A stretch of DNA of 36,326 nt from Candidatus Methylomirabilis sp. (GCA_012974305.1 JAAXQN010000157.1:1-36326), one strand, 5' to 3'. Positions 2,298 through 25,162 are shown, counted from the first letter of the stretch. The notes: generated by a model from the letters alone, not told the origin. Program-made: numbers and translations.

Positions 2298-3854
2298 CTA
2301 CTCGTCGGGTACTCTGGGCACGGGGCGGCCCTCGAGCCGGGCTTGGACCAGACGGGCCAGGAAGGCCGCGAACTGCTCGATGTTCTGCTTTACGCTGGCG
2401 GCTTCGAGCGCCGCCATGTATTCGTTGCGTCCCTCGACCGGCAGCACAGTCCACGGATAGCCGCCGGCGGCGAGCATGACATTCATCAGAAATCGGCCCA
2501 TACGGCCATTGCCGTCCATATAGGGATGGATGTACACAAACACGAAATGACCCAATACGATCCGCACGGACGGCTCTTCCTCCTCCCGCAGCAGATCGAA
2601 AAACGCCGGCATAAAATCGCGTACCGCCTCGTGGCGGGGAGGCACGTGCTTCGAGCGCCGGATATAGACCTGGTCGCTGCGGTAGCCTGCGAGGTCGGCT
2701 GCCCCGATGATTCCGGCGGTTACACTCGGTGTAAAGAGCTCCCGGTACCAATCGCCATGGTCACCATCAACGACTGCACCCGGGTTGTCGCCCCCGAGCA
2801 CCTTGCGCACGCTTTCCCTGACAGCCTGATAGGCCTGCCAATAACCGCGCGCCGCAAGCGCGTTGCGGTGTTCGCGGTCATCCTCGTCATCATCGGGGTT
2901 CCACGCGCCGGTGCGCACGCGCTCGATGAGGGCCGGGCTGACCCGGTATCCCTCGATCGACAGCGAATGGTAGGCGTCGGTGACATAGATGTCTTCGACG
3001 ACCTTCATATACGCATTGATGTCGGCAACTGGCCCCGGTGCGGCGGGGAACATCTCCATCACCGTCTTCCGCATCTGCTGCCACATCAGGCGAACGCGGT
3101 TAACGTAGGGCGATTGTTCGCGCGCCGGTAGAGCCAGCGCGGGTCGGTCACTGAACGGATCATTCTCGCGCACGTCATAGCCAGCTGCCCGCATCGTCTT
3201 GAGGATGTCGTCGGCGATGCGCGCGCGCCCGATATTCCGGAACGCCCCAGCAAGGCGGCCCGCCAGCGCGCTGTGGCCGCCGGCCAGCAGCAGGGCTAGG
3301 ACATCCGAAGCATCACGCACCATGGCAAGCGCGGCGCGCGCATCGGTCGCCCTTTGCGGGAAGTATCCCGGGGGACAGGCGATCAGCGCAGCCGGCAAAG
3401 AGAACAGGCGCAGACCTTCTTTCTCTTCCCGTTGTCCTTCCGCCGGTAGGGCAAGCCGGACATCGAACAGAGAGGTGTCGTGTGGTAGCGGCGTGACGCG
3501 GTTGCGCGCCTTCGGCGAGCGGACGAGCAGTTGGTGCGGCACCGCCCGGTTGCCGACATGCAGAGACAGAGATCGCTCGGGCGATAAGGACCATTCCGTC
3601 CCGAACCGCTCGTTCAGGTAGGCCGCGCAGAAGTCCCAGAAGGAGGCATACCAGGTCGTACTTTCCCCGCCAGCTCCATCCGGCCGGGCCGGGATGTACC
3701 AGCCCTTTATCACCTGGTGCAAGAACCCGTTCCGCAAGAGCCGCTCCCGATGGGTGCGGCTCAGGTAGGCGGAGCGGATGGCGACCACACCGCGCTCTTG
3801 AAGCTTTCTTAGAGCTCTAAGGGAGTCAGCCAGTTTTTCCTGCGGTCTTGCCAT
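2298..3854 (-). CDS. Fic family AMPylase with N-terminal AbiEi-like winged-helix domain
   Basis: 518 aa. Residues about 5-60 resemble the winged-helix/antitoxin domain of AbiEi-type proteins (ALRKLQERGVVAIRSAYL ... GWYIP). The C-terminal half is a Fic domain with the full catalytic motif HPYMDGNGRMGR (residues 443-454; catalytic His443). An upstream SLSIEG (297-302) matches the (S/T)xxxE(G/N) inhibitory helix, so this is a class II, self-inhibited Fic enzyme that would transfer AMP or another phosphate-containing group to a protein target. The gene stands alone, between a terminator and a 120-bp direct-repeat array directly upstream of its start. Inference: the N-terminal winged helix may bind that array and autoregulate, giving a one-protein toxin-antitoxin-like unit. 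No Shine-Dalgarno is obvious before the ATG. Confidence 0.88.
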   Translation of the reverse strand: MARPQEKLADSLRALRKLQERGVVAIRSAYLSRTHRERLLRNGFLHQVIKGWYIPARPDGAGGESTTWYASFWDFCAAYLNERFGTEWSLSPERSLSLHVGNRAVPHQLLVRSPKARNRVTPLPHDTSLFDVRLALPAEGQREEKEGLRLFSLPAALIACPPGYFPQRATDARAALAMVRDASDVLALLLAGGHSALAGRLAGAFRNIGRARIADDILKTMRAAGYDVRENDPFSDRPALALPAREQSPYVNRVRLMWQQMRKTVMEMFPAAPGPVADINAYMKVVEDIYVTDAYHSLSIEGYRVSPALIERVRTGAWNPDDDEDDREHRNALAARGYWQAYQAVRESVRKVLGGDNPGAVVDGDHGDWYRELFTPSVTAGIIGAADLAGYRSDQVYIRRSKHVPPRHEAVRDFMPAFFDLLREEEEPSVRIVLGHFVFVYIHPYMDGNGRMGRFLMNVMLAAGGYPWTVLPVEGRNEYMAALEAASVKQNIEQFAAFLARLVQARLEGRPVPRVPDE

Positions 3855-6356: not shown

Positions 6357-7481
6357 CTAGCGGTGTCGCAGGCCGTCTCGCAGTTCTCGAACTAGCGTCT
6401 CTACAGTGCCCCGCGTTCCACCGGCCAGTTTTTGACGCCACGGGCCCTCAGTCTCGAAGCGGCTGTCCCCGATTCGCTCTCTCCAAGGGGAGACAGCTTG
6501 GCGGATGGCGGCGGCATCGAACGGGTCCTTTTTAATTTCGCGGGAGGCTGCCATGACATCCGGCGAGACTCGCATAAAGGCTCTGAGCGCCGTTCCAGTC
6601 TTAATGCTGTACTTCCGCCCCGCCCAGGCCTGGGGAAATGTGCCTGCGATCGCCTTAAAATAATTCAAGAAGAAGCGGCGTGCGCCGTCACGGAGCTCCC
6701 GGGCCCGCTGCTCTCCACCAATCTTCCGTACGGTCTCGAGGAGCTCCACCATCTCGTCAGCCAAGGGTGCCTGAGAGACCTTGCCCCGCCCCACGCCCAG
6801 AATGCGGATCTCTCCTCGTAGGGGGGATGATTCTGTCTCGTTGAGCGCCCGGATGACATCATGGGCTAATGCCTGGTTCTCGTCAGCGTAAAGCCGCCGT
6901 CCGGCCAGGCTGATCAGGTGGGACGGGTTCAGACGCGTGTGCTTGGCGTTGATGGTGACGAACAGTTCCACGATTTGGCGGTCATCCAAGTTGTCAAAGA
7001 CGACGGCCGGGACCTCCATCGCTTTCAGTTCCTGGGCCGCGGCATGGAGGGCTAGCAGGCGATGTTGGCCATCGAGGGCTCGGAGGATACCCTGGTCTTC
7101 CGGAATCTGTAACAGTCCGAGGCTCGGGTTGGCCCCTCCTGGGGTGAATTTGAGCCGGCGCTCGGCGATGATGATCACTGCCCCGGGAATCGCCGGCAGG
7201 TTTCCCGCATCCTGACACTCCCGGTAGTACTGCAGCAGGTCCTCGATCTTACGACGGATTACGGGTCGCTGAAAGGCCCCCTCGCCCCGCGATATTCGCT
7301 TTTCTAAGAGTTCCCAGTTGATCCGCGAGGGGCGGCGCGGGAGCTTCGTTCGGGGTGCCTCGGGCGAGGCGTACCCTAAGACCTCGAATCGGACCAGTCG
7401 GTCAATGTCAGCCGCCGAAAAGGAAGCCTGATAAAATTCGACGCCGAACTGTCGAACCTTGTGAGCTGCAACCGTGATCAT
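6357..7481 (-). CDS. DGQHR domain protein (DndB-like family)
   Basis: 374 aa. It contains the defining motif LDGQHRLLAL, followed by FVTINAKHTRLNPSHLISLAGRR (read in two parts: FVTINAKHTRLN and PSHLISLAGRR) and a C-terminal NYFKAIAGTFPQAW segment typical of DGQHR proteins. Relatives include DndB, the regulator of phosphorothioate DNA modification, and proteins of other DNA-modification islands. No dnd, dpd or restriction genes are present here. Start ATG at 7479-7481 has GGGG about 11 nt upstream. It is the first gene of a two-gene unit with the AlkZ-related gene. Confidence 0.75.
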   Translation of the reverse strand: MITVAAHKVRQFGVEFYQASFSAADIDRLVRFEVLGYASPEAPRTKLPRRPSRINWELLEKRISRGEGAFQRPVIRRKIEDLLQYYRECQDAGNLPAIPGAVIIIAERRLKFTPGGANPSLGLLQIPEDQGILRALDGQHRLLALHAAAQELKAMEVPAVVFDNLDDRQIVELFVTINAKHTRLNPSHLISLAGRRLYADENQALAHDVIRALNETESSPLRGEIRILGVGRGKVSQAPLADEMVELLETVRKIGGEQRARELRDGARRFFLNYFKAIAGTFPQAWAGRKYSIKTGTALRAFMRVSPDVMAASREIKKDPFDAAAIRQAVSPWRERIGDSRFETEGPWRQKLAGGTRGTVETLVRELRDGLRHR

Positions 7482-12477: not shown

Positions 12478-13746
12478 ATGAACCGATGGGCTATCTGTTT
12501 GGCCGGGACAGGCATTAACATCTGCCTCGGCGTCCTTTACTCATGGAGCATCTTCGTCGTACCCCTGATTGCAAAGTTTGGGCCGGGGACGGAAGTGAAT
12601 AGCGCCGCCTTCACGAGGGCGAACCTGTCGTGGGTTTTCACCGCCTCGATCTTCACCTTCGCCTTGGTGATGGTCTATGCAGGGCGACTGCAAGATAGGA
12701 TTGGGCCCAAAGCCGTTACCATGATCGGCGCGGGGATCATGGCGACCGGGTTTATCCTCACCTCATTTGTCAGCTCCGTCCCGGCGATTTTCCTAACGTA
12801 CGGGGTCATCGGCGGCGCTGGCGTCGCCTTCGGGTACGTGACCCCGGTCGTCACCACGATCAAGTGGTTCCCCGACAAGAAGGGGCTAACGGTCGGGATT
12901 ACGGTGGCGGGATTCGGATTCGGGGCGTTCGTCTTTACCCCGATCGCCGTGAAGCTCATCAAGACCGTTGGGGTCAGCAGCGCGTTTCTGTACCTGGGGT
13001 TCATCTTCCTGATCGTGATCATGGCGCTCGCGCAGATCCTCAGGGTGCCCCCCCCCGGGTACAAGCCCGAGGGCTGGACCCCGCCGGCGCCTAAGCCGGG
13101 AGCCGCGAAGGCGAGAGACTACACCCCCGGCGAGATGATCAAGACCGGGACCTTCTGGACGCTCTGGTTGGCCTTCGTGGGGAACGCGGGAGTGGGCCTG
13201 ATGGTGATCAGTCTCATCGCCCCTTACGCGAAGACCCTCGGCATGAGCGCAGAGACGGCGGCCTACTTGATCGGCTTCCTGTCGATCGCGAATGGCTTTG
13301 GCCGCATCATCGCCGGCTTTATGTCCGACGCCATGGGCCGCGCCACGGCGATGATCGTCATCTTCGCCGTCACCACGGCGACCGTCATAGCGATCCCGTA
13401 CATGGCCAACACGACGGTCGGGTTGGCGGTCGGGCTCATGGTCTGCGGGGCGGCATATGGGGCGAACTTTGCCCTGTTCCCCGCCGCGACCGCCGAGTAC
13501 TTCGGCACCAAGAACCTGGGGGTGAACTACGCGTCTGTCTTCACCGCCTGGGGTATCGCCGGTGTCATTGGCCCGCAATCGAAGGCGGCTATGCTCCGGT
13601 CCTATCCCAAGGACGTGGCGGGACGGTTGGATGCGTACAATGCCGGTTTCAAGATTGCTGCCGCCCTGGGCATATTGGCGGTCGTGATGGCCCTCATGAT
13701 CAAGCCGCCGAAGGAGACCGCGCCTGCGCCCGCCGTCGGCTCGTAA
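12478..13746 (+). CDS. MFS transporter, oxalate/formate antiporter (OFA) family
   Basis: 422 aa with about 12 hydrophobic segments. The N-terminus RWAICLAGTGINICLGVLYS, then W..F, and the loop TTIKWFPDKKGLTVGITVAG are typical of OxlT-like OFA carriers, which exchange small carboxylates across the cytoplasmic membrane. The central cytoplasmic loop (PPPGYKPEGWTPP) is also characteristic. Start ATG has GGGGAGG 7 nt upstream. The gene is monocistronic, with its own promoter and terminator. The substrate cannot be told from sequence. Confidence 0.9.
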   Translation: MNRWAICLAGTGINICLGVLYSWSIFVVPLIAKFGPGTEVNSAAFTRANLSWVFTASIFTFALVMVYAGRLQDRIGPKAVTMIGAGIMATGFILTSFVSSVPAIFLTYGVIGGAGVAFGYVTPVVTTIKWFPDKKGLTVGITVAGFGFGAFVFTPIAVKLIKTVGVSSAFLYLGFIFLIVIMALAQILRVPPPGYKPEGWTPPAPKPGAAKARDYTPGEMIKTGTFWTLWLAFVGNAGVGLMVISLIAPYAKTLGMSAETAAYLIGFLSIANGFGRIIAGFMSDAMGRATAMIVIFAVTTATVIAIPYMANTTVGLAVGLMVCGAAYGANFALFPAATAEYFGTKNLGVNYASVFTAWGIAGVIGPQSKAAMLRSYPKDVAGRLDAYNAGFKIAAALGILAVVMALMIKPPKETAPAPAVGS

Positions 13747-17425: not shown

Positions 17426-18592
17426 ATGAAGGGTGACGGAACCACCACGTTGAGCGGGATGAACCGAATGGGCCTGACACACGACGAGTGCCATGCGCCG
17501 GTTTCGAGAAGGCTGGAACCGGTCTTTGAGGAGTATGCCAAGGCCTTGGGGATTCCGATGCGTGTCCATGTCCCGGTGAACCATTTCTCCCCTCCCTGGT
17601 GGGGCGGTGGTCTGCATCTCCACGTCTTTGCCCTGCCGGCCCGACCCCACTGGTTTAGCCTCTGGCCGATCACCCCAAGCGTCGAGATGCGCGCCGTCTT
17701 TTCTCTGGCGTTGGCCGACAAGACGAACAATCCACTGGATCCTCGGCAGCTCTTCTCGCAGGGCGCCTTGAAATACGATCAGCAGGGGCATGCGGTCGCC
17801 GGAATTCTGGGAGAGAACATCTACGTCCTCTTCGATCTCCTGGGGCAACCCGAGGAGTTGGTGCCGCTCATGCTGCGCAGGATCCTCGACCTGTGTCTCG
17901 AGGGCTTGACAGAGTCGCTGTCCCACTGGACCGGGAGACTCCCTCATCAGCTCGAGATCACCCTCCATCGTCTGAGTCACTCGACCACGCTGGCCAGCCT
18001 GGACCACTCCGTTTCCCCGGAGGACTCCGGAACCCAAGACCCCCCACCTCGAGTGGCGGGGGACCCTGTGGATGTGTTCAATGGACGGATGGCGGCCGTG
18101 GAAGAGAATCTCAAAGAGCTCTCACGCCAAATGGGGTCGCAAACCCGCCTGCTGAGGAACTGCCGGGAGCGACTTGGCACACTCAAGCAGGCCGAGCAAT
18201 CCACAGAGCTGCTTGAGCGAGAGCTGGATGGGTTGCTTAGTATTCCCGAAATACGAGAAGTACAGGTCTTGGAGGATCGCCTGCGCGTCTTCACGGATAC
18301 CGTTGATACCGTCGTCGCCAGCAAGCGGTACCGGTTGGGACGCTTTCGCCTCGATATCCGCTTCAATGGCGACGTGGACATCAAGAACCTGACCCGGGCA
18401 TACGGCTACTATGACCATCCGCACGTCTGGAATGCCAAACCCTGCCTGGGCAACATCCATCAGAGTGTCCTGAAACTGGTCAGCGAATTCCAGTGGGTTG
18501 CCACTGCTGAACTGCTCCTCGAGTATCTGAAGACCGTGAATCCGAACGGGTGGTACACGCCCATCGACCACTGGGAGGAGCTTCAGGCGTGA
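17426..18592 (+). CDS. Protein with E2/UBC-like C-terminal domain
   Basis: 388 aa from ATG 17426 (ATG 17459 is an alternative; neither has a strong Shine-Dalgarno). The N-terminal half is mixed alpha/beta; residues about 220-265 look like a coiled coil (AVEENLKELSRQMGS ... LLERELDGLL). The C-terminus runs GRFRLDIRFNGDV, then YYDHPHVWNAKPCLGNI and WVATAELLLEYLKTVNP. This matches the E2 pattern (beta meander, HPN/HPH-V, a Cys near residue 340 in P-C-L-G-N-I, a Trp, then a helix), including a possible thioester Cys. Its stop overlaps the GTG start of a JAMM isopeptidase gene, supporting a ubiquitin-related role. The fold assignment is inferred from motifs only. Confidence 0.6.
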   Translation: MKGDGTTTLSGMNRMGLTHDECHAPVSRRLEPVFEEYAKALGIPMRVHVPVNHFSPPWWGGGLHLHVFALPARPHWFSLWPITPSVEMRAVFSLALADKTNNPLDPRQLFSQGALKYDQQGHAVAGILGENIYVLFDLLGQPEELVPLMLRRILDLCLEGLTESLSHWTGRLPHQLEITLHRLSHSTTLASLDHSVSPEDSGTQDPPPRVAGDPVDVFNGRMAAVEENLKELSRQMGSQTRLLRNCRERLGTLKQAEQSTELLERELDGLLSIPEIREVQVLEDRLRVFTDTVDTVVASKRYRLGRFRLDIRFNGDVDIKNLTRAYGYYDHPHVWNAKPCLGNIHQSVLKLVSEFQWVATAELLLEYLKTVNPNGWYTPIDHWEELQA

Positions 18593-19230
18593 ACTGGACC
18601 GGCAACACCCCGCCCGAGATCCTGATTACCCCGCAGGCTTTTCAAAAGCTGCGACTGTACATCGACCTCTGCCCGATGGAGATTGGCGGACTCGGCGAAG
18701 TGGAGCGGGACGGCCACCGTTTCTTGATTACCGATCTCTTCATTCTCCCGCAAAAAGTTTCCCCGGCGGAGACGGAGCTTGACCCGGCGGCCATGCTCGA
18801 AATCCTTGAATGCTGCGTTGCCGAGGGGCGGAATCCTGCATCCCTGTGTCTGTGGTGGCACAGCCACGCAGAGATGGACCTGGAGTGGAGTGAAACCGAT
18901 AAACGCACCATCGCGAATTTCTCCGGGGACTTTATGATCTCTGTCGTCGGCAATAAGGCCGGCGCCTTTGCCTGTCGCCTCGACACCTTGGACTCGAACG
19001 GGCAGACGCTCGGGGATCTTTCCCTGACGATCCTTCCCAGCGAGGGGACTGAAGTGGACGAGGCAGTTCTCCGCAGCGCCATCATTGCCGAGATGTGCGA
19101 GAAGCTCCAAGTGATCAACAAGGATCTGCAGTTTCATGAGATCCCTGTCGAAGTGGAATTTTTGTCTCCCTTCCCCCCTGAGCTTTGCCCGCCAGAGTCC
19201 CCATCCTCGTCGGTGACCGACGACCGTTGA
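18589..19230 (+). CDS. JAMM/MPN-type metal isopeptidase (Mov34/PAD-1-like)
   Basis: 213 aa from GTG 18589, which overlaps the preceding stop (GTGA) and has GGAGG at proper spacing. The full JAMM zinc signature is present: Glu31 (CPMEIGGLGEV), then H91-S-H93 followed by seven residues, S101, two residues, D104 (HSHAEMDLEWSETD). JAMM enzymes remove ubiquitin-like proteins from targets or trim their C-termini. The downstream half is unassigned. The last residues (SSVTDDR) are encoded by a heptamer array. Coupling to the E2-like gene argues for a joint conjugation/deconjugation role. Confidence 0.85.
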   Translation: MNWTGNTPPEILITPQAFQKLRLYIDLCPMEIGGLGEVERDGHRFLITDLFILPQKVSPAETELDPAAMLEILECCVAEGRNPASLCLWWHSHAEMDLEWSETDKRTIANFSGDFMISVVGNKAGAFACRLDTLDSNGQTLGDLSLTILPSEGTEVDEAVLRSAIIAEMCEKLQVINKDLQFHEIPVEVEFLSPFPPELCPPESPSSSVTDDR

Positions 19231-19287
19231 CCGCGAACCAAGAGCTCGGACATTGGACCTCGGACCTTAAGCCGTGAAGCGTGAACA
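19211..19287. repeat. Heptameric tandem array overlapping the JAMM gene end
   Basis: Eleven 7-nt units: cggtgac, cgacgac, cgttgac, cgcgaac, caagagc, tcggaca, ttggacc, tcggacc, ttaagcc, gtgaagc, gtgaaca. The first units encode the JAMM C-terminus and stop. Confidence 0.75.
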
Positions 19288-19301
19288 TGTTGGAGGTGGA
19301 C

Positions 19302-20042
19302 ATGATCCGATTCTTGCGAGTCACCGATCTCCGATCTGCGGACAACCATGCCATCCCAGCCTATCTATTCCTCCCAGAATCCCCCCGGGGGGGGGCGGCC
19401 GTCGTTCACGGCTATGGAGGGTGCAAGGAGCAGATGCTGGGGATCTCGGCGCGCCTCGCTGAGGAGGGATGGGCCAGCCTGGCCATCGACATCCGCGGAC
19501 ACGGTGAGCACCCCGCCCCCTTGGACGAGAGGCTGCTGCAGGATCTGGAGGCGGCCCTGGACTCCCTACGACGTTACGGGAGGGTGGTTGCCCTAGGGCA
19601 CAGCCTGGGCGGGCGCCTTGCCCTGATCTCCAGCGCCGACCTCGTTATCGCCATCTCTCCCGCCGTGGCCAGTCGGCCTTCCGAGGAGGGAAGGCAGATG
19701 CTCCTCGCCTTTGGGTCCACCACCGTCCGGAGCCCGAGTCCAGACTATATCCTGGAACTCCTTCGGAAGATGGAGCAGGTCCAGGAGCCGACCCGGCCGG
19801 TCCTGCTCCTTCACGGGGACCAGGATATTCCGACCCTCATCGAAGGGATTCGTGGGCTGGCAGGAGACCTCCCCCAGGGAACGTTGGCGGCCGTGACCGC
19901 CTTCCAGCACCCCGAGGCCTCCCTCAGCCCTGCCATCCTGCCCTATCTCAACCGATGGTTCAACCACCTGGACCTGAAGTTCAACCCCGACGTCTTCCAG
20001 CGGGCAGTGGCATGGCTCAAGGTCCAAGAGGGGAGCGGATAA
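19302..20042 (+). CDS. Alpha/beta hydrolase
   Basis: 246 aa from ATG 19302 (GGAGGT 5 nt upstream; the ATG/GTG codons earlier lie at the edge of a heptamer array). HGYGG forms the oxyanion region, the nucleophile elbow is GHSLGG, and LLLHGDQD carries the likely acidic residue; the catalytic His may be in TAFQHPEA. Cytoplasmic, no signal peptide. Substrate unknown. It lies between the JAMM gene and a second E2-related gene on the same strand. Confidence 0.85.
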   Translation: MIRFLRVTDLRSADNHAIPAYLFLPESPRGGAAVVHGYGGCKEQMLGISARLAEEGWASLAIDIRGHGEHPAPLDERLLQDLEAALDSLRRYGRVVALGHSLGGRLALISSADLVIAISPAVASRPSEEGRQMLLAFGSTTVRSPSPDYILELLRKMEQVQEPTRPVLLLHGDQDIPTLIEGIRGLAGDLPQGTLAAVTAFQHPEASLSPAILPYLNRWFNHLDLKFNPDVFQRAVAWLKVQEGSG

Positions 20043-20052
20043 CTCGGTCGCC

Positions 20053-20901
20053 TTGACACGTGAATTGAAGACACCTAAGCTCAAGGGACACAGGAGGGAA
20101 AAGGGAGCTGTGGAGTGGATCGAGATTCGAGAGAAAAAGGTCTTCCTCTACCGGGATGGGTCACCCCCCACCCTTAATCGAGAGGTTCCGCTCGAGGACT
20201 TTCTCCGGCAGGTGGCCGCTTCAGCCCGTCGTCCCGGTCGAGGGCACCATCTCCTCCTCCCCCCCGGCACTCGCATCGCCAAGCTGGAAGGGGCGGTCAA
20301 CGTGCTCTGCATCGAGCAACCGCCACAGCTGCGACTGATCCGCTGGAGCGATACCCCTATGGGGAAAGGGGGGGAGTACCAGACCCACCGCCTCGCCTTC
20401 CCCTATATTGTCTATCTCTTCCTCTTCTTCCAGGGAAGCTTCGAGGAGATGCGCGTCTACTATCGGACCGCCCCGATTCAGAGCCCGAATGACGTCTTGC
20501 TGATGCCGAACCTCTGGAATGTGCAGGCCGACCCCGGAAAGCTCTCGGCCTGTCGTGCCTGTCTCAGAGGCCGACGCTCTGATCTGTGGGGGGATCCTTT
20601 GGCCGACCAAATACCGGTCCTGTTGGACCACTTCTGGGGCACCGGCTTTAACACCGACATCGAGGGGAATTGCTTCGAGCGTGCCCGGGGCCTCGACTCT
20701 CGCGTCGCCTCGCTCGAGGCGTGGAAAGACGCTTCAGTGGCCGATCCCCTCTTCCCCCTTGCACTCAGCTGGGAGCCGCTCGAGCCGACCGTCGGGGAAG
20801 TCATGGATCGCCTCATCCAAACCGGTCCCCAGCCGCGTCAGGCCATCGGCGAAGCCTCCGACCTGGCAGACCTGATCTACCGCATTCCCGAAGCCAAATA
20901 G
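20053..20901 (+). CDS. Prok-E2_D / PRTRC-B-like protein (putative E2-fold)
   Basis: 282 aa from TTG 20053; GTG 20110, preceded by AGGAGGG, is a good alternative start. The middle (LAFPYIVYLFLFF, MRVYYRTAPI, DVLLMPNLWNV ... ACRACLRG) followed by PLADQIPVLLDHFWGTGFN resembles the arrangement in PRTRC system protein B / Prok-E2_D: a hydrophobic strand, a 'P-x-x-NV' segment, a Cys (here C167 and C170), then a helix with F-W/F-F. The similarity is by pattern only. Ten bases separate it from the hydrolase stop, so it probably belongs to the same transcription unit. Confidence 0.5.
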   Translation: MTRELKTPKLKGHRREKGAVEWIEIREKKVFLYRDGSPPTLNREVPLEDFLRQVAASARRPGRGHHLLLPPGTRIAKLEGAVNVLCIEQPPQLRLIRWSDTPMGKGGEYQTHRLAFPYIVYLFLFFQGSFEEMRVYYRTAPIQSPNDVLLMPNLWNVQADPGKLSACRACLRGRRSDLWGDPLADQIPVLLDHFWGTGFNTDIEGNCFERARGLDSRVASLEAWKDASVADPLFPLALSWEPLEPTVGEVMDRLIQTGPQPRQAIGEASDLADLIYRIPEAK

Positions 20902-20946
20902 GGGAGAAACGCGCACATGGCGGGGTGGGGTTTTCACCTTCAATAG

Positions 20947-21271
20947 GTGAAGCATCCCTTATACTTCACGTATGAGGGATCGATTGTCGCCACGGAGGAG
21001 ACAGAGCCGCTCCACTGCTTCTTGATGCTGGGCCAGGATCACTTACCCGTTGAACTCAAGTCCCTGGAGCAGCATTTTCCCCGAGGAGCTCATGCAGGCC
21101 TGGGGGGCCCATTTGGGGAACCCGGCCTACGGCCCGATCACCCACTCTCGGACAGGAGAGATCGAAGAGCCCTTTGGCGAGATGATCCTGACCGCAACAT
21201 GGCGCTTTCCCCCCGAGGACCGCGAGATTCTCAGGGCCAGGGTCGAGAGCTTCCTGGAAAAAAACACTTGA
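20947..21271 (+). pseudogene. Frameshifted small gene of unknown family
   Basis: The first frame (MKHPLYFTYEGSIVATEE ... VELKSLEQHFP) continues meaningfully only one base later (PEELMQAWGAHLGNPAYGP ... RARVESFLEKNT). The switch is at TTTTCCCC (21075-21082): dropping one C restores a protein of about 107 aa. In addition the frame extends upstream to an ATG at 20917 but is cut by TAG just before the GTG at 20947. It is a broken gene, an assembly error or a +1 frameshift at CCC-C. No family recognised; it lies inside the E2/JAMM block. Confidence 0.5.
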
Positions 21272-21397
21272 TAAAGATCTATGTGCTATATTATAGAACA
21301 AGGTTTGAGGGGGTAATCCTCGTAGGATGGATCCCATGAAGCCCGACCGACGCCGGAGCCGACTTGGCGACACCGCGCGGAGCGAGTGAGGAAGACG

Positions 21398-21739
21398 ATG
21401 ATCACAGGGCAGGAGCGGAAACGCATGGAAGAGCGATTCGGGGAGATCGGTGAGGGCCTCACCGAACTCACCATAGAGGGGAAGCGGTACGATCTGTATC
21501 AACTGCTCAAGGGCATAGGATTAGACCACGCTGACATCCGCCCCATCGACGCCCACGTCGTCGATGCGCCCAACCGCTTCGCCATCCGGTACTTTGACCT
21601 GGAGGACCGGTGCATCGTCGCCTACGAGTTCGACCCCGAATTCCGGTATCTGGGGGAGGTTCGGGCCCATATAGACGAATGGATGGGAAATGACTACTAC
21701 GACTTCCCCTGGTCCATCTCTTGCCCCGACTCCTTCTGA
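21398..21739 (+). CDS. Hypothetical protein, 113 aa
   Basis: ATG 21398 is preceded by GAGG at 6 nt. Acidic protein with an N-terminal helical part (ERKRMEERFGEIGEGL) and alternating hydrophobic strands (FAIRYFDLEDRCIVAYEFD). No known family. An extended -10 box (TGCTATATT, near 21284-21292) lies upstream, overlapping a half-site ATAGAAC like that of the IclR operators. Confidence 0.6.
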   Translation: MITGQERKRMEERFGEIGEGLTELTIEGKRYDLYQLLKGIGLDHADIRPIDAHVVDAPNRFAIRYFDLEDRCIVAYEFDPEFRYLGEVRAHIDEWMGNDYYDFPWSISCPDSF

Positions 21740-22019
21740 TCCCTGCCCCAAGGAAACGTGGCGGATCCAGGGGATCGGATGGGAGAGACGCGGGTTCGCC
21801 TATGAGGGGACCGCGAAAAACGACCAGGAGGACCTTTCCTTCTCCCTCCGTTACCATGAAACCCACTTGGCTCTAGCGATCTATTCGTCCCGACCTGCCG
21901 CCTTTCAGCTTGTAGAGCACCTGAGCAAAACCCTGGGAAAGCCAACCACCGGCCCCGATCTTCTCAACATCGGAGAGCTCAGCGACAGCGACGGGGAAGT
22001 CTCCACCTATACCGTTTAG
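21690..22019 (+). CDS. Hypothetical protein, about 109 aa
   Basis: The open frame overlaps the previous gene by 50 bp; the first 15 residues (Thr/Ser/Pro-rich) are probably not natural, and the true start is unclear because no ATG/GTG/TTG follows soon. From about residue 20 it looks protein-like (GWERRGFAYEGTAKNDQED, LSFSLRYHETHLALAIYSS). Possibly translated by coupling or frameshift from the upstream gene. No family recognised. Confidence 0.45.
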   Translation: MTTTTSPGPSLAPTPSDPCPKETWRIQGIGWERRGFAYEGTAKNDQEDLSFSLRYHETHLALAIYSSRPAAFQLVEHLSKTLGKPTTGPDLLNIGELSDSDGEVSTYTV

Positions 22020-22023
22020 TTTG

Positions 22024-22128
22024 TCCGTGGTTCGTGATTGGTGGTAGGTGGTTGGTGAAAACCACCAGCCACTAATCACTAGTCACCAGTCACTATCGGT
22101 CATCGGTCAACGGTCGTCGGTCATCGAG
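22024..22128. repeat. Heptameric tandem array, GTGG/CCAC then CGGT type
   Basis: Fifteen consecutive 7-nt units without phase break: tccgtgg, ttcgtga, ttggtgg, taggtgg, ttggtga, aaaccac, cagccac, taatcac, tagtcac, cagtcac, tatcggt, catcggt, caacggt, cgtcggt, catcgag. Three unit families follow one another, the first two being inverted copies. Confidence 0.9.
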
Positions 22129-22136
22129 GTGCAGAG

Positions 22137-23492
22137 ATGGATGAGCATCCACGGATCGCCCCGCAGCGAAGACACCTCGAGAGACAGGCGCAAGATCTCT
22201 TAGAGCGCGTCCCCTTCATGGAGGACGAAGAGCTGCGGTGGACCGTTCGGTTTCTCAGAGATTGTCTCCCCCCTATGGAGCAAGCCGCAATGCTCCGGGA
22301 CCACAGTGAGCATCTCGACCTCCATCAGATGCGGCAGATGGTGGAGCAGTTTATCCCCCGGTACACGGACCATGCCCTTGAGGCGCTGGAGGCCAAGCGG
22401 TTTACCTCGGGACAAAGCCTTCGGGATTTGACCGATGAAGAACTCCAGGGGATCTCTGCGGCAGAGAAGTGGGATCTCTTCCTGCAAGATTCCACTGCCT
22501 TACAGCCATATCAGGTCCGGCGAGAGCTGGCGCGCCTGTTCATGTGTCTCAATTTCGACCTTTTTCATGACACCCTCTCGGCAGAAGCGGCGATCGAATT
22601 TAGCGCCTACCTTGACCTCGTGGAACGTTTCGGCGCACTGTCGGATCAGGCGATCGAGAATCTGAAAGAGCAGGCCGTCGCTGCCTTTCGAGGCCTCAAT
22701 GTTCGAGACGTCTCTGCAGTGGAGGCGGCGTTGGCCACACTGCGGGAGGCCATCGGCGGGGCAGCAGGTCTCAATCCGCCCTTCGATTCCCTCTTCAGCG
22801 AGCGGATGGAGCGATGGCCCGCGAGCGCTCCAGAAACCCTCCCGGACGTGTTAAATCCGGAAATCACGGCCGCCGTCGAGGCGATGAATCTCGAGCAGCT
22901 GCAGACCTCTCTCCGGGTTCTGATGGAGTTGATGAGCCTGGAAGAACAACAACGGGAGATCGAGCCCCTCAAGGGAAAATATCGTTCCCTCACTGATATC
23001 CCCGCCGAGGAGCTCAGCATCTTCCTTCCCCAACTCTCCATGCGGTTAGGAGATAGGAATGTCTGCGACTTCGCTCTTCGATACCGGTCAGGGCGTCTCT
23101 GGGCTCGGGAAAAGGTGAGTCCGCAGGCCTGGAAGCTCCTCCCCTTCCAGGACAAATTCATGGTGCTCGAGGCAGATAACGATGCCATGGACTTGCTGCA
23201 GGCCTCCCGGCACCTGACTCGCCTCTTGCTCACCGACGGATACGAACGCCTCTTTGATCCTGCCTATCAGGTTGCCCTGACACACGAGCCTCTGTATCGC
23301 CGCGTCCTCGACTACTGCATGACGGAGCTTCAGGACCGAGACCAGCTGCAACGGGTGAACCGCCAGGTCACCAGAATGATGCTGGAGCTCGAGGAGCTCG
23401 TGCCGGAAGGGGAGAGAGCGGGTCGGTTTCTTGAGATCCGGGAGGTCATCGGCAAGATCTTCAAGATCGAACCGCCCGCCGAAAAGCAATAA
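22137..23492 (+). CDS. Large helical protein of unknown function
   Basis: 451 aa, almost entirely predicted helical, rich in Leu/Glu/Arg (MRQMVEQFIPRYTDHALEAL, EQLQTSLRVLMELMSLEEQQ). No signal peptide, catalytic motif or known family recognised. ATG has GAGG 7 nt upstream. Its stop overlaps the start of the TPR gene by one base (TAATG), so the two are translationally coupled and probably interact. It belongs to the same-strand block after the JAMM and E2-like genes. Confidence 0.75.
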   Translation: MDEHPRIAPQRRHLERQAQDLLERVPFMEDEELRWTVRFLRDCLPPMEQAAMLRDHSEHLDLHQMRQMVEQFIPRYTDHALEALEAKRFTSGQSLRDLTDEELQGISAAEKWDLFLQDSTALQPYQVRRELARLFMCLNFDLFHDTLSAEAAIEFSAYLDLVERFGALSDQAIENLKEQAVAAFRGLNVRDVSAVEAALATLREAIGGAAGLNPPFDSLFSERMERWPASAPETLPDVLNPEITAAVEAMNLEQLQTSLRVLMELMSLEEQQREIEPLKGKYRSLTDIPAEELSIFLPQLSMRLGDRNVCDFALRYRSGRLWAREKVSPQAWKLLPFQDKFMVLEADNDAMDLLQASRHLTRLLLTDGYERLFDPAYQVALTHEPLYRRVLDYCMTELQDRDQLQRVNRQVTRMMLELEELVPEGERAGRFLEIREVIGKIFKIEPPAEKQ

Positions 23493-24493
23493 TGACGCAA
23501 GAGCGAACATCGCAGGAGAAGGTCGAGACCCTCGAGGCCCTCGCCCAGACCCAAGAGGCGGAAGGGGACGGGGTCGGTCTGCTCGAAACCCTTGCAGAAC
23601 TCGCAGGCCTGCTGACGGAATTGCAGGATGAGCCGAAGGCCCGAAGGACCCTGACTCTGGCCTACCAAGTCGCCCAGACCGCCGAGGATGAACCAAAGAT
23701 TGCCCAGGCCTTTCACCAACTGGGTGTCCTCTACCATCTTCAAGGAGGCTGGGATCGGGCCCTGGAGCTGTTTCACCGGGTGCTGGCGGTCCACCAGAGG
23801 GCCAACGACCGGCATGGAATCGCCGTGACTCTGGGGAGTATCGCCGAGTCGTTTCAGGGCAAGAGAGAGTTTCGAAAGGCTTTGGAGAAGTACGAGGAGA
23901 GTCTTGCCATGAGGAGGGAACTTCAGGATGAGCGGGGACTGTCCCTCACCTGGAACAACATCGGGACGGTCAAGGCCCGGATGGGAGACATCCCCGAAGC
24001 CCTCGAGGCTTTCGAGAAAAGTCTCCAGACGCAGGAGAAACTGGGGGATTCCCTCGGGAAGGCGGTGACCTTGACTAACATCGCGAGTCTCCACCAGCGC
24101 CAAGAAAACTGGCACGAGGCGCTCCGGGGCTTCGAGCAGAGTCTCGGCCTTTATGAGATGGCGGGAGATCCCCTGGCGTTGGCGACCACCCTAAACAATC
24201 TCGGCCTGGTTCGACGTCGCCTGGGTGACCTAGATGGGGCTTACCAAAGTTACGCCCGGGCCAGGGACCTGATGCTGCAGCGGGGGGACCACCTGCGGGT
24301 CACCATCCCCATTCACAATATGGCCATGATCCACGAGGAGCGTGGGGAGTACCGGGACGCCCTCCGCCTCATGCAAGAGGTCATCAACATCGACAAGCGG
24401 ATCGGGCACCCGGACCTGAAACAGGATCTCGAGACCTTTGGCCGCATCCGGGAGAAGCTCGACCGAGAGCGAGACCAGCGGCAGTCTGTTTAG
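23492..24493 (+). CDS. Tetratricopeptide repeat (TPR) protein
   Basis: 333 aa built of roughly seven 40-residue TPR units from about residue 55 to 300 (e.g. GIAVTLGSIAESFQGKREF, SLTWNNIGTVKARMGDIPEA, ALATTLNNLGLVRRRLGDLD), of the Rapsyn/LGN-like long-repeat kind. A protein-protein interaction scaffold; no enzymatic domain. Translationally coupled to the helical 451-aa protein, with which it may form a complex. Confidence 0.85.
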   Translation: MTQERTSQEKVETLEALAQTQEAEGDGVGLLETLAELAGLLTELQDEPKARRTLTLAYQVAQTAEDEPKIAQAFHQLGVLYHLQGGWDRALELFHRVLAVHQRANDRHGIAVTLGSIAESFQGKREFRKALEKYEESLAMRRELQDERGLSLTWNNIGTVKARMGDIPEALEAFEKSLQTQEKLGDSLGKAVTLTNIASLHQRQENWHEALRGFEQSLGLYEMAGDPLALATTLNNLGLVRRRLGDLDGAYQSYARARDLMLQRGDHLRVTIPIHNMAMIHEERGEYRDALRLMQEVINIDKRIGHPDLKQDLETFGRIREKLDRERDQRQSV

Positions 24494-24706: not shown

Positions 24707-25162
24707 GTGCACTGCAGGTACCGACTAACGTCTCGGGAGAAGGCCCGCGTCACCTCCGCCCTGCAGGACCTTCTGGGGTTTCGCGAGGAAGTCCTCTTCG
24801 CCTATCTCCACGGCTCTTTCATCAACGGGAACAGATTCCGCGACATCGACGTGGCGGTCTACCTCCATGGCCGCCTCACGCGGCGGGCCTCCCTGCAGTA
24901 CCAGGTGACCCTCGCCAAAGACATGAGCCGGGCGTTACGGCTCCCGGTCGATGTCACCGTCCTCAATGTGGCTCCCCTCGGCTTGAGGCACAACGCCGTT
25001 TCCGGCCGAGTCCTCCTCTGTCGCGAGAACGGGACGCGCACGCACTTTGCGGATGGAGTCTGCCAGCATTACGAGCGGATCCGTAAGACGGCGCGCCACG
25101 CTCTTTTCGGCCTTCTTTGGGGAGATCTGACAGCGCGCCGCCTCACCAAATGGCGGCGCTGA
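24707..25162 (+). CDS. MNT-type minimal nucleotidyltransferase
   Basis: 151 aa starting at GTG 24707. The nucleotidyltransferase signature is intact: AYLHGSFINGNRFRDIDVAVY (read as HGS then DIDVAV, the two metal-binding Asp). Later VDVTVLN may hold the third carboxylate. Proteins of this kind (MntA) usually pair with a HEPN toxin gene and silence it by AMPylation, but no HEPN gene follows here, so this copy is an orphan or acts alone. Confidence 0.75.
   Translation: MHCRYRLTSREKARVTSALQDLLGFREEVLFAYLHGSFINGNRFRDIDVAVYLHGRLTRRASLQYQVTLAKDMSRALRLPVDVTVLNVAPLGLRHNAVSGRVLLCRENGTRTHFADGVCQHYERIRKTARHALFGLLWGDLTARRLTKWRR

Follow-up and report, generated by a model that had tools for sequence, protein, structure and literature searches.

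How could a bacterial ubiquitin-like conjugation pathway operate from a locus that encodes an E2-like protein and a JAMM isopeptidase, and neither an E1 nor a ubiquitin-like protein (Ubl)? The window analysed here, a stretch of 36,326 nucleotides, is the whole of contig C22 of a 2.82-Mb draft genome (G000), whose host belongs to Methylomirabilota (candidate division NC10) in a genus shared with CSP1-5 and SPGG6. All genes of the cluster are on the plus strand, and the open reading frames were found where the original prediction had placed them and in the same order. E2a (17426..18592; 388 aa) comprises an N-terminal alpha/beta domain, a coiled coil and a putative C-terminal UBC-like domain with H331-P-H and C340. 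The JAMM isopeptidase gene follows (18589..19230; E31/H91/H93/S101/D104); its open reading frame spans 18550-19230, and the GTG at 18589 is probably its start codon, because the GTGA at 18589-18592 holds this start together with the E2a stop. Next are an alpha/beta hydrolase resembling S33 serine aminopeptidases (HYD, 19281..20042; Pfam E=1.7e-12) and E2D (20053..20901; 282 aa), which has conserved C167 and C170, belongs to a family with paralogues in the PRTRC_B position and has a putative E2 fold. Two small proteins, F117 (21386..21739), conserved in homologous clusters, and the fast-evolving G109 (21690..22019), which stops earlier than the copy of a close relative, precede H451 (22137..23492), likewise conserved in homologous clusters and without known relatives, and a TPR-repeat protein (23492..24493; Pfam TPR_12 E=5.8e-46); the last two genes overlap by one base, at 23492. 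Among the window proteins, Pfam, NCBIfam and PADLOC recognised only the hydrolase, the TPR protein and, weakly, the JAMM protein. No E1 or Ubl gene was found within the window, as had been predicted. The suggestion that the 109-aa and 113/117-aa proteins might be beta-grasp proteins found no support; they match nothing, and ubiquitin-like small proteins in the window were rejected for want of support.

Several genes lie around this cluster. An MFS transporter gene (12478-13746) is located about 4-5 kb upstream of E2a-JAMM, and the same MFS family adjoins the JAMM gene in six other loci. A DndB-like gene (6357-7481; PF14072, E=1.8e-13) and a gene for a Fic-domain protein (2298-3854) are found approximately 10-15 kb upstream. 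A small polymerase-beta-type nucleotidyltransferase gene (POLB, 24707-25162) lies 3′ of the cluster in the genus; with 84-87% identity it evolves like housekeeping neighbours and probably stands outside the cluster.

E2a has no convincing match in Pfam, NCBIfam or PADLOC, and Pfam finds no UBC domain in it. Because no Pfam model exists, a survey based on established E2 profiles would overlook this family, which is present in 21 of the 95 genomes of the phylum. E2 enzymes carry an HPN-type motif about 8-10 residues before the catalytic cysteine, with helices after it, and E2a shows H331-P-H-V...C340 in this arrangement, with His replacing the Asn of HPN. H331, P332, H333, C340, L341 and G342, together with an upstream N-L-T and Y-D, are invariant among the homologues (n=24), and H331, P332, H333 and C340 are also kept in a viral homologue. 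In the AF2 model (pLDDT 76, pTM 0.50), the N-terminal alpha/beta domain and the coiled coil are followed by a helix (260-271), strands (276-331), C340 and two helices, and the order of these C-terminal elements can be read as that of a UBC domain. A Foldseek search of the PDB placed UbcH7 and Ube2T at ranks 1 and 2, with E=0.05 and 0.2 and low TM-scores. A profile of the C-terminal domain matched E2 L3 or a derivative in 9 of 10 PDB matches (E 0.4-0.8), with the HP and the active cysteine in register between E2a and E2 L3, and the whole-length profile retrieved mostly coiled coils. Each of these scores is weak alone; the argument that E2a is an E2-type enzyme is that two methods, one working from the model and one from the sequence profile, agree on both the family and the residue, and that in relatives the gene sits between or beside those for E1, JAMM and Ubl.

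The JAMM metal-site residues E31, H91, H93, S101 and D104 are invariant in 17 homologues, although Prok-JAB scores the protein at 16 bits against a cut-off of 25 bits, and the gene is the sole copy of its family in this genome. An E2-like protein coupled to an intact JAMM, as originally proposed, is thus borne out by the GTGA overlap, the invariant motif and the metal site. The anticipated conservation of gene order was likewise recovered: the E2-JAMM pair, with its order kept and its genes overlapping or adjacent, was seen in four families of the order, and the larger cluster of the window is repeated across the genus, which argues that the linkage is not due to chance. Across 35 genomes of the order, 14 have both JAMM and the E1 described below, 4 have JAMM only, 2 have E1 only and 15 have neither (P=1.3e-4, a value that ignores relatedness). 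A stand-alone JAMM gene in another genome (L014/L031, G018:C189:2753-3331) contains an in-frame stop codon, reflecting either decay or a sequencing error.

A search of the complete draft for ThiF genes identified four, all on contigs other than that of the window. One of them, on contig C6, encodes an E1 flanked by a paralogue of E2a, named E2b (HPHIYQGRPCLGNI), and by a 77-aa protein ending in VPKIRGG (Ubl1), in the order E2b-E1-Ubl1; a cognate E1 and Ubl are thus encoded elsewhere in the genome. Of the two options first put forward, an E1-less and a trans-dependent system, the latter is therefore the one favoured by the data, and a truly E1-less system was rejected. In three relatives, E2-JAMM-E1-Ubl1 are consecutive in one operon; E1 and Ubl share a cluster with E2 and JAMM at L026, L027 and L029, and do not in the window. 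Other relatives keep E2-E1-Ubl1 together with JAMM apart, and the family of the window and a second family, f2, carry an extra E2a-JAMM pair besides E2-E1-Ubl1. JAMM-linked E2 proteins fall apart from E1-linked ones in the E2 tree, whose deepest fork is weak (60/73). The E1 is a minimal ThiF protein (215-239 aa) in which the nucleotide-binding glycines and one cysteine, mostly in a "PCT" context, are invariant (n=18), and no further conserved partner of its operon was found across families. The GG of Ubl1 is invariant (n=14) and is followed by 0 to 6 residues, so that trimming of a precursor by JAMM is possible in some lineages and would be needless in the genus of the window.

We consider it likely that the locus represents the E2-plus-deconjugase half of a split bacterial Ubl conjugation system, of whose genes this genome keeps E2b-E1-Ubl1 on contig C6 and E2a-JAMM in the window. 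If it works like the E1-E2-JAMM systems already described (PMC1779556; PMC10097602), E1 would adenylate Ubl1 and transfer it via its own invariant cysteine to the cysteine of E2b or to C340 of E2a; E2a would attach Ubl1 to targets handled by the proteins of the cluster, and JAMM would remove it again and could also trim the precursor in relatives with a short tail after the GG. E2a and E2b are diverged paralogues with 35% identity, and E2a may not accept Ubl1 given this divergence.

A second potential source of Ubl emerged from the relatives of E2D. On contig C198 of the same genome, an E2D paralogue is followed by a JAB protein, a ThiF protein (ThiF2) and an 89-aa protein ending in GEKG (Ubl2). 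In the corresponding operon of a relative, the JAB and ThiF proteins resemble PRTRC_A and PRTRC_ThiF, below cut-off; several plasmid PRTRC systems show the same B-A-ThiF order, and both PRTRC C proteins inspected end in KG, as does Ubl2. An AAA+ ATPase gene lies directly 5′ of the E2D-like, JAB, ThiF and Ubl genes in all 11 operon-type loci that hold the upstream side (for example L044:5491-9831, which is G000:C198, and L153:4794-9048; also L154-L162), and in the two cases scanned its product is nearest CDC48 and proteasome-activating nucleotidase (PAN). The AAA-E2D-JAB-ThiF-Ubl arrangement is a candidate Ubl-guided unfoldase operon and is absent from the listing in PMC1779556. In the E2D tree, operon and cluster clades are split at 99/96, with the window E2D in the cluster clade. 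The original description of this 282-aa protein as Prok-E2_D/PRTRC-B-like stood in part: comparison with a profile of eight PRTRC_B sequences gave P=0.011, and its paralogues in the second system occupy the position before PRTRC_A and ThiF, which the window copy does not, whereas neither Pfam nor NCBIfam has a Prok-E2_D or PRTRC_B match for it. When no more than two PRTRC_B or PRTRC_C sequences went into the profile, the comparison gave no information, and an AF2 model from five sequences (pLDDT 43) was too poor for a fold search. We infer the E2 fold of E2D from the gene order of its paralogues and the weak profile match. No E2D was found in viral contigs.

Comparison across relatives clarified how the cluster is composed. 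In two genomes of sister species it reads E2a-JAMM-HYD-E2D-Ubl2-E2D2-F117-G109-H451-TPR, and a third (G012) has a contig-limited portion of the same E2a-to-TPR order. The window and its closest relative (L146) have neither Ubl2 nor the second E2D, E2D2, and no convincing remnant of either was detected between 20901 and 21386. The in-cluster Ubl2 copies (L025:7239-7565, L147:4985-5293 and L024:9685-9996) have a tail of 14-19 aa after GEKG, which the Ubl2 of the C198 operon does not, and in the sister species the protein may need processing. In other families HYD-E2D-F117-H451-TPR is present without E2a-JAMM, at L148 and, interrupted by gaps or contig ends, at L149 and L150; the hydrolase also adjoins E2D in several families. 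Because other families hold this set on its own, two modules, E2a-JAMM and HYD-E2D-F117-H451-TPR, appear to have been joined in the genus of the window. For the "new partners" of the original prediction, the conserved linkage of the hydrolase, F117, H451 and TPR is in their favour, and nothing beyond linkage was recovered; no PDB relatives of F117 or H451 were found. H451, TPR and G109 share only 32-43% identity between species of the genus, whereas neighbours such as POLB and U32 peptidases share 79-87% between the same species, a contrast that would suit recognition or target roles for the fast-diverging proteins. The window G109 (21690-22019) is about 21 residues shorter at its end than that of a 97%-identical neighbour (L146:7852-8244) and may be truncated.

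Extending the split-system explanation to both sources is more tentative. ThiF2 of the C198 operon might load Ubl2 onto the window E2D, as a cluster-specific paralogue, and both systems might supply the cluster in trans, making it a branch dedicated to particular targets in which the fast-evolving H451 and TPR act as target or recognition partners; these steps have less behind them than those involving Ubl1. It is conceivable, at a clearly lower probability than the split itself, that the cluster is a hub joining two Ubl systems, those of the ThiS-like Ubl1 and the PRTRC-C-like Ubl2, with specialised E2 duplicates of both, one JAMM and fast-evolving partners of its own, all fed in trans. If so, the bacterium would have a network in which one E1 serves several E2s, as eukaryotes do, and one of its feeding systems would be built around a CDC48/PAN-like AAA+ ATPase.

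Homologues in viruses bear on what such a system might be for. Three viral contigs carry an E2-like gene followed by JAMM and E1; their E2-like proteins match the family profile at 4.7e-44 (L184, itself in the profile), 5.5e-5 (L041) and only 0.02 (L042), and an independent BLAST comparison of the window E2a with L184 gave 4e-13. The E1 family is present in about 80 phage records, mostly of Bacteroides crAss-like and Flavobacterium phages. In all three of the records read, which come from crAss-like phages and Flavobacterium phage FpV4 (L211:1139-4705, L212:1313-4699 and L210:1548-4618), JAMM lies directly upstream of E1. The gene before JAMM encodes 393-428 aa that include Y-x-H-x-H...C-x-G, and its product resembles E2 in motif and position alone. 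The trios of the viral contigs and of these phages share with the NC10 operon the order E2-like, JAMM, ThiF, with overlapping or adjoining genes, and match the family profiles at 4e-37 to 9e-44 for E1 and 1e-7 to 4e-10 for JAMM; no Ubl was identified in them. A phage protein of 420 aa is a further match of the E2a model (E=4.7e-6), but with a TM-score of 0.25. Since the Ubl systems known from bacteria have defence roles (PMC10097602; PMC13373217), the locus might serve an anti-phage or stress response in the manner of Bil, Bub or CBASS, and H451/TPR might be its sensor or effector. The rapid divergence of H451, TPR and G109 and the presence of the same E1 family with JAMM in phages would fit such a role, but PADLOC matches only a generic JAB and TPR, no defence island or known effector adjoins the cluster, and its inheritance looks vertical within the order. 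We regard a defence function as possible but rather unlikely; it is compatible with the split-system explanation at the biochemical level.

The similarity of Ubl1 to sulfur carriers raises a different reading, in which Ubl1 is a ThiS/MoaD-type carrier, E1 its adenylyltransferase and JAMM a peptidase of the Mec+ kind, while the "E2" serves as scaffold or sulfur relay instead of conjugating. Ubl1 does match ThiS (two members were scanned, one of which scored above cut-off) and MoaD models, E1 matches ThiF, and JAMM-ThiS-E1 sulfur operons have been described (PMC1779556). Sulfur chemistry is nevertheless improbable: at these loci E1 lacks a rhodanese domain, its conserved neighbours include neither a cysteine synthase gene nor any other sulfur gene, an E2-like protein with the invariant HPH...C always accompanies it, and the genome encodes a MoeB-type protein separately, as well as a JAB on contig C248. 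Still harder to sustain is an E1-independent or de-conjugation-only function, in which E2a and JAMM bind or trim without an activating enzyme. The cluster contains no E1 in any genome seen, and three genomes (G001, G004 and G011) have E2a and/or JAMM with no cognate E1 detected, but these are drafts of 76-93% completeness, the cognate E1 is encoded elsewhere in 6 of the 7 genomes of the genus (in one as a contig-edge fragment), and in relatives it is part of the operon. Decay of the cluster after loss of its E1 and Ubl is the least probable reading of all, for although Ubl2 and E2D2 of the sister species are missing here and G109 is shortened, the catalytic residues are all intact, the frames are open across species 35-80% diverged, and E1 and Ubl1 persist elsewhere in the genome.

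The split system can be placed among known ones by its parts. The second system resembles the PRTRC core and Iyer 2006 type 6d (Ubl, JAB, E1, E2) in its B-A-ThiF order, but differs in scoring below all curated cut-offs and in being preceded by an AAA+ ATPase rather than ParB, E, C and F genes. PRTRC systems combine ParB, A, B, C, E, F and ThiF genes, and the window was rejected as a member because only a B-like protein is present. A link to type II CBASS Cap2/Cap3 and the 6A-6C operons is that PADLOC models for E1-E2 match the E1 here over their E1 portion, and JAMM is predicted to take the deconjugase role of Cap3; unlike in CBASS, E1 and E2 are unfused, no cGAS-like gene was identified as a substrate, and the JAB model matches only at E=0.01. 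Type II CBASS is defined by an E1-E2 fusion (Cap2), a JAB (Cap3) and a cGAS-like synthase, and it was rejected since the cluster has no Cap2 fusion or CD-NTase match. With CysO/Mec+ and ThiS/MoaD systems it has in common a ThiS-like Ubl, a ThiF-type E1 and a JAMM peptidase, whereas the E2-like protein in every E1 locus seen and the lack of conserved sulfur-metabolism neighbours set it apart. Searches of literature text on crAss/ThiF, NC10 and PRTRC with ubiquitin returned nothing on point. In gene content the E2-JAMM-E1-Ubl1 operon of relatives is like Bil (BilABCD) and Bub, with an individual gene each for Ubl, E2, E1 and JAB, and would follow the same logic of reversible Ubl conjugation. Bil itself encodes in one operon a tandem-Ubl BilA, a BilB with a CEHH motif and a BilD E1 with two adenylation domains (PMC11354881). 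Here the Ubl is a single-domain, ThiS-like protein of 77 aa, the E1 is a minimal ThiF, the loci are split, and the E2 differs from BilB in its HPH...C and extra N-terminal domain; membership in Bil was rejected, as Ubl, E1, E2 motif and operon features all differ.

The usual picture of a bacterial Ubl system is a self-contained operon with a single E2. The genome studied here appears to hold two full Ubl systems, with E2 duplicates located away from the E1s and a cluster drawing on both. Whether one E1 serves several E2s, and whether separate loci divide the work, can thereby be tested in a bacterium. The AAA(CDC48/PAN-like)-E2-JAMM-E1-Ubl operon, if functional, would provide a bacterial parallel to Ubl-guided unfolding.
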